Assembly: GCA_023301795.1 (NCBI GenBank)
Contig: JALZVU010000027.1
Span: forward strand, 1 to 64,000
DNA from: Granulosicoccus sp.
GTDB lineage: Bacteria; Pseudomonadota; Gammaproteobacteria; Granulosicoccales; Granulosicoccaceae
Direction: 5' to 3'
DNA length: 64,000 nt
The position numbers and the translations under genes are program-made. A model generated the notes under the pieces. The model searched no databases and was not told the origin of the DNA. It saw only the letters and a list, made by a program, of their open reading frames with translations. Positions 32,805-35,550 of this stretch are shown piece after piece. Numbering within the stretch: position 1 is the first letter of the stretch; each line of letters opens with the position of its first letter.

Positions 32805-32881
32805 TGGTAGGCGCGATTGGATTCGAACCAACGACCCCCACCATGTCAAGGTGATGCTCTAACCAACTGAGCTACGCGCCT
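32805..32881 (-). tRNA. tRNA-Val (GAC)
   Basis: A 77-base cloverleaf on the minus strand. Acceptor AGGCGCG pairs with CGCGCCT; the D arm includes AGCTCAGTTGGTTAGAGC. The anticodon loop TTGACAT gives anticodon GAC; the T arm is GTTGG-TTCGAAT-CCAAT. CCA is encoded at 32805-32807. Confidence 0.95.
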
Positions 32882-33000
32882 GCCGTTGGGCGGTAGTGTA
32901 AGCAAGTGGCCGCCGAAGGTCAACAATGATCTACACTGTCTTTGCGAAATAGTTACTCCTCTTTGTTAAAGTAATACAATGTTGTTCCCAAAGGATCCAA

Positions 33001-33057
33001 GTGGCCTCTCGTAGCGGCCACCACTGACCCAAATACGTGGCCCATTGTGTGGGTCAC
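33001..33057 (+). promoter_or_regulatory. thrS leader: two hairpins displaying threonine anticodons
   Basis: Hairpin 1 (33001-33021) pairs GTGGCC with GGCCAC around the loop TCTCGTAGC; its central seven bases CTCGTAG read as an anticodon loop with U33 and anticodon CGU. Hairpin 2 (33037-33057) pairs GTGGCCC with GGGTCAC (one G-U); the seven-base loop ATTGTGT again has U33 and anticodon UGU. Both are threonine anticodons. In E. coli, ThrRS represses thrS translation by binding leader stem-loops that mimic tRNA-Thr. This leader sits 31 bases before the GTG start, with AGGA at 33074-33077. An autoregulatory operator is the natural reading, though untested. Confidence 0.65.
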
Positions 33058-33087
33058 CACTGATGCTCACCCCAGGACTAAAATACC

Positions 33088-35028
33088 GTGCCTATCATTA
33101 CACTCCCCGACGACTCGACTCGTCAGTACCCTAATCCCGTAACGGTTATGGACGTGGCTGCCGATATCGGCGCCGGGCTCGCCAAGGCCACACTCGCAGG
33201 TATTGTTGATGGTGAATTGGTGGATGCCAGTCATGTCATGGAAGGCGATGCCAGACTGGCTGTAGTCACTAATAAAAGCGAAGAGGCGCTACCGCTTTTG
33301 CGGCACAGCACCGCTCATTTGCTTGCTCAAGCGGTGAAACAACTTTTCCCGAAAGCACAAGTGTCGATAGGCCCCGTCATAGAAGGCGGTTTTTACTACG
33401 ACTTTGATTACGAACGATCCTTCACTCCCGAAGATCTTGAGAGTATTGAGAAACGCATGAAAGAGTTGGCTGAGCAGGCCATTTCATTGCAACGCTCTAC
33501 TGTCAGCCGCGATGACGCCCTGCAGATGTTTAAAGACATGGGTGAGGATTACAAGACGCAGATTATCGACAGCATCCCTGGCAACGAAACCTTGTCACTG
33601 TACGCTCAAGGAGACTTTACCGATCTATGTCGTGGTCCTCATGTGCCTCACACTGGTCATCTCAAGGCCTTCAAACTGACCAAGCTGGCGGGCGCTTATT
33701 GGCGCGGTGATTCAAACAACGCCATGCTGCAGCGAATTTACGGTACCGCGTTTGCCAATCCTAAAGAGCTCAAAACCTACCTGCATAACCTGGCAGAGGC
33801 GGAAAAGCGCGACCATCGCCGAATTGGCAAGCAGCAAGATCTGTTTCACCTTCAGGACGAGGCGCCGGGTATGGTTTTCTGGCACCCCAAGGGGTGGGCC
33901 ATTTACCTGGCTGTAGAAAACTACATGCGTGAGCAACAAGTGAAACATGGCTATCAGGAAATCAAAACGCCGCAAGTAGTCGATTTTTCCTTGTGGGAGC
34001 GCAGTGGTCATGCAGATAAATTTGGCGACGACATGTTCACGGTGCAAACCGATGATAAGCATTACGCTGTCAAGCCAATGAACTGCCCGTGCCATGTGCA
34101 GGTGTTCAATCAGGGGCTTAAAAGTTACCGAGACCTGCCGTTGCGACTGGCAGAATTTGGTTCATGTCACCGTAACGAGATGTCGGGCGCTCTGCACGGC
34201 ATCATGCGTGTACGTGCCTTTACTCAAGACGATGCGCATGTTTTCTGCACAGAAGCGCAGATTCAGGAAGAGGTCAGTGCCTTCATCGATTTTCTACACA
34301 ATGTTTATGACGACTTTGGCTTTACCGAGATTATCTATCGTTTATCAACGCGGCCACCTAACCGGGTAGGTAGCGATGAGGCGTGGGACAAAGCTGAAAC
34401 TGCGTTGGCACAAGCTCTGGATGCCAAGCAACTTCCCTGGCAAGAGCTACCAGGCGAGGGTGCTTTTTACGGACCAAAAATTGAGTTTTCCCTGAAAGAC
34501 TGTATTGGCCGTGTTTGGCAATGCGGCACCATGCAGGTAGATTTTTCGATGCCGGGTCGTCTGGACGCTAGCTATATTGATGAGAACGGTGAGCGTCAGA
34601 TACCCGTCATGTTGCATCGTGCGATTCTGGGTTCCTTCGAACGATTCATTGGTATCCTTATCGAGAATTTCGAGGGGAAACTGCCGTTATGGCTCTCTCC
34701 TGTGCAAGCAGTTGTCATGAACATTACCGACAAGCAGAGTTCTTTCGTTGAAGAAGTGGCAGAAGTGTTGCAAAATAGCGGGTTACGTGTACAGAGTGAC
34801 GTGCGCAATGAGAAGATCGGTTTCAAGATTCGCGAATGGACACTGCAACGTGTTCCGTATTTGCTGGTTGCTGGAGACCGTGAAGTAGAAAGCAGGTCCA
34901 TCGCTGTGCGTACGCGCAACGGAGAGGATCTTGGCGTTTTAACTTTGGAAGAACTTAATTTGATGCTTAATAATGAGGTCGCAAATCGCGGCCGTGGTGC
35001 TGTGAATACAGCCGCGAAGGAGGGCTGA
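33088..35028 (+). CDS. thrS: Threonyl-tRNA synthetase
   Basis: A 646-residue class II synthetase (E. coli 642). Domains in order: TGS domain (residues 1-62), editing domain with [11 protein letters not shown] and LCRGPHVP, catalytic core from about 240 with motif 2 ([15 protein letters not shown]) and motif 3 ([15 protein letters not shown]), and anticodon-binding domain from about 535. The zinc ligands are in [17 protein letters not shown] and MLHRAI. The GTG start is preceded by AGGA 10 bases upstream. The infC ribosome-binding site lies within its last codons. Translation is probably controlled through the leader hairpins. Confidence 0.98.
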
Positions 35029-35031
35029 TCC

Positions 35032-35550
35032 ATTTCCGCTAAAAAGATTAACCGGAAGAACGAAGAGATTGATGTCTCTGAAGTCAGGCTTATCAATGCC
35101 GAAGGCGAGCAGGTGGGCGTTGTCCCTATCGACAAGGCGCTGGAAACGGCTGCTGAGGCGGGTCTGGATCTGGTAGAAATTTCGCCCAACGTCTCTCCGC
35201 CTGTTTGCAAGATCATGGATCACGGTAGATTCAAGTTCGAGGCTAACAAAAAGCAGAATGCGGGTCGTAAGAAGCAAAAGACTGCGCAGCTTAAGGAAAT
35301 CAAGTTTCGGCCCGGCACTGAGGATGGTGATTACCAGGTGAAATTGAAGAATCTGGTGCGATTTCTGGAAAACGGCGACAAGACAAAAATCACCTTGCGC
35401 TTCCGTGGTCGGGAGATGGCTCACCGCGAGCTTGGAGCCAAGTTGCTCAAGCGGGTAGAGGAAGATTTAGCCGAGTTGGGTACTGTTGAGCAGTTTCCAA
35501 AGCTGGAAGGCCGGCAAATGGTTATGGTTATTGCGCCCAAAAAGCATTAG
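35032..35550 (+). CDS. infC: Translation initiation factor IF-3 (AUU start)
   Basis: A 172-residue IF-3, which keeps ribosomal subunits apart and proofreads initiator codon pairing. The true start is ATT at 35032, with a strong AAGGAGGG (35017-35024) seven bases upstream inside the end of thrS. This gives (M)[19 protein letters not shown], the expected N terminus; the first in-frame ATG would remove much of the N-domain. The N-domain ([19 protein letters not shown]) and C-domain ([19 protein letters not shown]) are both complete. AUU initiation of infC is known in E. coli, where IF-3 discriminates against its own start codon, so the same feedback is expected here. Confidence 0.95.

Follow-up and report, generated by a model that had tools for sequence, protein, structure and literature searches.

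The thrS operator of Escherichia coli is a textbook case of tRNA mimicry. Two of its hairpins, in domains II and IV, are recognised for their likeness to the anticodon loop of tRNA-Thr (PMC11088916; PMC9976931), and binding of threonyl-tRNA synthetase (ThrRS) to the operator keeps the 30S subunit off (PMC11088916; PMC3858243). In the 64,000-nucleotide stretch of Granulosicoccus sp. DNA analysed here (the window), two hairpins with threonine anticodons stand in tandem just 5' of the thrS start at 33088, raising the question of whether they form an operator of this kind and what two near-copies of one arm would do in it. We consider it very likely that this leader is a translational operator through which ThrRS regulates its own gene; the two arms probably hold one ThrRS dimer, and the upstream arm is probably a duplicate (features in Table 1).

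The loops CTCGTAG and ATTGTGT described in the earlier note are both present. Each arm is 21 nt long with a 7-nt loop and NGU at positions 34–36, arm 1 reading GTGGCC-T-CT-CGT-AG-C-GGCCAC and arm 2 reading GTGGCC-C-AT-TGT-GT-G-GGTCAC. A U/C mismatch at 31–39 limits the stem of arm 1 to 6 bp, and that of arm 2 has 7–9 bp; arm 2 carries G37 where A is usual, as does E. coli domain 2. Apart from the 31–39 mismatch, pairing probabilities in the full leader were 0.99–1.00 for arm 1 and 0.92–0.96 for arm 2 (0.92–1.00 overall), and RNAfold also paired 32–38 and 33–37, leaving a triloop in each loop. Dinucleotide shuffling of the 144-nt leader yielded two such arms in 0 of 20,000 shuffles and one arm in 0.17%. 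The folding energy of the whole leader was not unusual (z = -0.74), so the evidence lies in the specific arms and their conservation. An independent covariance model, trained on 32 arms taken from other lineages and containing no sequence of the Granulosicoccus genus, matched both arms in the 64-kb window (E values in Table 1), and the next match stood at 0.91. When the 5.8-Mb genome was scanned with a model trained with these arms, only the two arms of the thrS leader scored well. No family in Rfam 15 covered the thrS leader at gathering score.

Table 1. Features of the thrS leader and gene in the window
Feature	Position	Strand	Basis or remark
Possible -10 element TACACT	32932..32937	+	Consensus match; alternative TACAAT at 32975-32980
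thrS operator element 1	32998..33026	+	Outer CA/UG helix, 32998-32999 with 33025-33026
Internal loop of element 1	A33000 vs CAC33022-33024		
Anticodon-arm mimic 1 (CGU), loop CUCGUAG	33001..33021	+	Independent covariance model, E 2.4e-7
Linker between stems, 15 nt	33022..33036	+	
thrS operator element 2	33034..33062	+	Outer UA/UG helix, 33034-33035 with 33061-33062
Internal loop of element 2	C33036 vs CAC33058-33060		
Anticodon-arm mimic 2 (UGU), loop AUUGUGU	33037..33057	+	Independent covariance model, E 1.8e-5
AGGA, weak Shine-Dalgarno-like, 10 nt 5' of start codon	33074..33077	+	Partly unpaired in predicted ensemble
thrS, threonyl-tRNA synthetase, 646 aa, GTG start	33088..35028	+	Sequence comparison

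For comparison, we took the ThrRS loci of 57 related genomes, together with those of 80 named genome contigs, and cut each at the thrS start. Two arms were present in all 24 congeneric leaders with sufficient upstream DNA, this window counted, in a survey that demanded GT in the loop; no such congener lacked arm 1, and retention among close relatives, on which the earlier note had staked its proposal, was thus complete. The linker between the arms measured 12–17 nt in 23 of these leaders and 8 nt in one. In the remaining genera of the family, as far as read, there is a single arm, as there is in most other gammaproteobacterial lineages (for example loci L002-L010 and L107-L117), at a similar distance from the start. 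Outside the genus, a clear tandem was found in Oceanospirillales bacterium XeTr1 (L013) and weak second arms in L199 and L214. With the independent model, 100 class-wide loci each gave one strong arm per leader. A phylum-wide scan returned positives almost confined to Gammaproteobacteria (27 of 28 positive genomes), and of the 110 fetched loci, which cover most of the class-wide model matches at E <= 0.01, 108 precede a thrS start.

Since the survey had required GT in the loop and could not show GT conservation, it was repeated without that demand, scoring the stem and tail but not the loop. In all 84 leaders with the stem, the stem enclosed exactly 9 nt and G35-U36 was present, whereas N34 varied freely (C 51, G 19, A 7, T 7). 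Consistently, the class-wide leaders had G35-U36 in 108 of 108, with N34 as C in 69, G in 27, A in 7 and T in 5, and position 37 as A in 100 and G in 8; these loci were picked by a model that had learned GU, which makes the 84 the cleaner test, although the loop-unscored loci overlap the training set of that model. A fixed G35-U36 with a free N34 is the anticodon rule of ThrRS, and the arms appear by sequence to follow G35-U36 rather than to copy one isoacceptor. The earlier note had named conservation of U33 as a further check, and here it failed: the 25 leaders with two arms (L013 and the 24 of the genus) provide 50 arms, of which 31 have T at position 33, 13 have G, five have C and one has A.

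The stems covary, as anticipated. In the alignment 93.5% of cells were paired and compensatory change was seen at 4 of 7 pairs; the 18 double-change cells compare with a shuffled mean of 3.4 and were reached in 0 of 500 shuffles, and the true register beat slid registers. With the genus left out, three pairs and 17 double-change cells remained (0 of 500 shuffles). Pairing of GUGG with CCAC in another register was rejected, as position 2 covaries with position 20 and not with the tail. The arm is framed by a short outer helix: on its 5' side, separated from it by a single base, stands a dinucleotide that is CA or UA with few exceptions, and in 98% of 164 other elements this dinucleotide finds a partner in UG or UA. 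The outer helix closes an internal loop in which one base faces CAC, and a few C-G to U-A changes were seen in it; covariation support for the helix is slight because its two bases are so conserved. The internal-loop CAC, the 3 nt after each arm, is kept in about 90% of elements class-wide, where it might serve as a ThrRS contact or as a bend in the RNA.

How does this leader relate to the E. coli operator? The ThrRS of the window is 58% identical to that of E. coli across 635 residues, and its relatives in the PDB include 1qf6 and 1kog, the latter of which we take to be the ThrRS–operator complex. The arms here correspond to one and the same element as domain 2 of E. coli (GTGATCTTTCGTGTGGGTCACCACTG), whose binding by ThrRS has been characterised, and this homology implies that ThrRS should bind and repress in Granulosicoccus too. 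The two leaders agree in gene, in position, in the domain-2 arm sequence (GTGATC..GGGTCAC-CACTG), in the G35-U36 loop, in a weak Shine-Dalgarno just downstream and in having two anticodon-like hairpins; the E. coli domain-2 element also folds with an internal loop, but its outer helix is longer. Contrary to what had been supposed, the arrangement does not depart from E. coli in principle, since E. coli likewise has two anticodon-like arms (domains 2 and 4). The difference is that the arms here are tandem near-copies on a short linker: E. coli domain 4 is a long hairpin of unrelated sequence (loop AUUUGUUG), whereas the upstream arm here is a near-copy of domain 2, and the E. coli linker of about 30 nt contrasts with 15 nt here and 8–17 nt in the genus. 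The leader therefore combines a 5' position upstream of the ribosome-binding site, a domain-2-homologous GU hairpin with a covarying stem, and a second upstream anticodon-like hairpin in the form of a tandem copy of the first arm. The long unstructured linker of E. coli (domain 3), which aids ribosome binding, is missing or reduced here, making this a variant of the E. coli-type operator and not a plain member. Single-arm thrS leaders of other Gammaproteobacteria have the same element right before thrS, but in one copy and mostly without a clear second arm. The mRNA leader of Saccharomyces cerevisiae AspRS, compared from the literature only, is alike in that a synthetase binds its own mRNA through an anticodon mimic, but the gene, RNA and organism are unrelated (PMC9976931).

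The stems share GTGGCC, as the earlier note had pointed out, and the likeness runs on into the 3' tail CACTGA, which follows both arm 1 and arm 2. Among congeners, arm 1 and arm 2 are as similar within a species (identity 0.80) as between species (0.80), so the arms separated before the genus diversified and were never homogenised since; concerted evolution was considered and is not seen. The ancient duplication that had been suggested is accordingly probable. The tail common to both arms speaks for duplication and against convergence, but constraint alone could also produce such similarity. The upstream arm would then be a duplicate of the conserved domain-2 arm, formed in an ancestor of the genus, and may have taken over the job of E. 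coli domain 4. A hexamer of the TACACT/TACAAT type lies 13–51 nt 5' of arm 1 in many congeners, and in several of them a -10-like hexamer lies 13–27 nt before arm 1, so that an E. coli-type domain 4 would hardly fit. This suggests, with the promoters putative, that the leader of several congeners may hold little besides the two arms.

In the mechanism that we propose, free ThrRS in excess over tRNA would bind the NGU arms through its anticodon-binding domain, and the bound enzyme would cover the weak Shine-Dalgarno region just 3' of arm 2 and block 30S binding. Accumulating uncharged tRNA-Thr would compete for ThrRS, and repression would be lifted. The two arms would probably engage both subunits of one ThrRS dimer, as E. 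coli domains 2 and 4 do, and by that analogy one dimer held by both arms over the 15-nt linker is plausible. The linker, at about half the length of that in E. coli, counts against such a dimer clamp, and the variation of U33 in the genus, the 31–39 mismatch of arm 1 and the G37 of arm 2 count against the operator explanation. Tentatively, and with somewhat less than even confidence, we suggest that the genus has swapped an E. coli-type domain 4 for a tandem duplicate of a ThrRS-binding module, spread across the class and about 30 nt long, that consists of an outer YA/UR helix, an N/CAC internal loop and an NGU arm, so that a compact repeat operator clamps one dimer where a single module suffices elsewhere. 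If so, the valency of the operator would differ from one lineage to another.

Most other lineages seem to manage with a single arm, so the second arm does not have to be there for the second subunit. Each arm might instead receive its own dimer, or the upstream arm might just raise the local enzyme concentration while arm 2 alone represses. The prevalence of single arms outside the genus, at a similar distance from the start, fits such independent sites, as does the better conservation of arm 2 within the genus (a2-a2 identity 0.83 vs 0.78 for a1-a1). We nevertheless think this unlikely: arm 1 retains G35-U36 in every congener read (GU being demanded by that survey), the narrow range of linkers and the usual CAC/UG outer part on arm 1 suggest a fixed geometry, and two hairpins are recognised in E. 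coli (PMC11088916). Natural one-arm and tandem two-arm operators would permit a direct test of whether both dimer subunits are needed for repression.

Could the hairpins do without ThrRS, as mRNA-stability structures, an RNA thermometer, or promoter or DNA repeats? A leader that is not unusually stable has a fold that by itself demands no protein partner. Yet the invariant GU in otherwise variable loops, the fixed 9-nt interior and the near-exclusive location before thrS fit anticodon recognition by a protein, and simple stability requires none of the three, which renders a role without ThrRS very improbable. The earlier note had also attached significance to the two different anticodons, and the loops of this one genome do differ at N34, as they would if CGU and UGU mimics competed separately with different tRNA-Thr species. 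This we find hardly credible, given that N34 drifts freely, that the two nearest relatives (L083 and L084) carry CGU in arm 1 as well as in arm 2, and that the anticodon signal in the leaders is G35 and U36 alone. Moreover, no tRNA-Thr(CGU) was found in this incomplete genome, its tRNA genes being read locus by locus, nor in a single-contig congener of 7.8 Mb in which a few tRNA matches stayed untyped; both gave GGU and UGU only. The difference between the two anticodons is probably not meaningful. Under the preferred operator explanation, the survey makes the ThrRS anticodon rule visible in evolution, with the internal loop kept alongside; the open papers searched seem to say little about natural variation of the thrS operator.

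We also searched single-arm leaders for a second hairpin like domain 4, with upstream tRNA genes masked. A strict upstream GU hairpin occurred in only about 14 of 158 leaders, so a second arm is not demonstrable for most of them. With at least 5 Watson-Crick pairs, GU was the top dinucleotide (14 vs 8 for the next with a 7-nt loop, 11 vs 8 with a 9-nt gap); when 4 pairs sufficed and the loop had 7 nt, it came second to GA, and it was not first when U33 was also demanded. A general domain-4-like hairpin was dismissed. Individual loci (L028, L031, L069, L036 and L037) carry, 5' of the proximal arm, hairpins whose stems are unrelated but whose loops are of the threonine type (UUGGUUU, UUCGUCU, AUCGUAA, CUGGUAG); these are likely domain-4 equivalents with short linkers. 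Methylophaga and relatives (L029, L034, L044, L048 and L066) have a divergent short form about 25–45 nt before thrS, GGCCyTTTGTATCGGCCACAACCA or similar, with a Thr-type loop, a 4-bp stem and an altered tail, which the survey missed. Seven Methylococcales loci (L041, L051, L068, L071, L072, L078 and L081) have no arm; instead, the stretch from the upstream tRNA to thrS contains a terminator-like hairpin with a T run, some 25–30 nt before the start codon.

The surroundings of the gene offered further observations. Congeneric thrS genes start with ATG, compared with GTG here. A divergent tRNA-Val(GAC) gene lies upstream of thrS on the reverse strand (32805-32881). Many other Gammaproteobacteria have, directly upstream of thrS and co-directional with it, a tRNA that carries this GAC loop (e.g. 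L117 and L118), so the linkage to thrS looks old and the tRNA gene appears to have been inverted in the Granulosicoccus genus. Downstream, infC very probably starts with ATT at 35032 (ATT TCC GCT AAA AAG), behind a GGAGG that overlaps the end of thrS; ORF callers place the start too late, at GTG 35113, and the ATT resembles the AUU start of E. coli infC.
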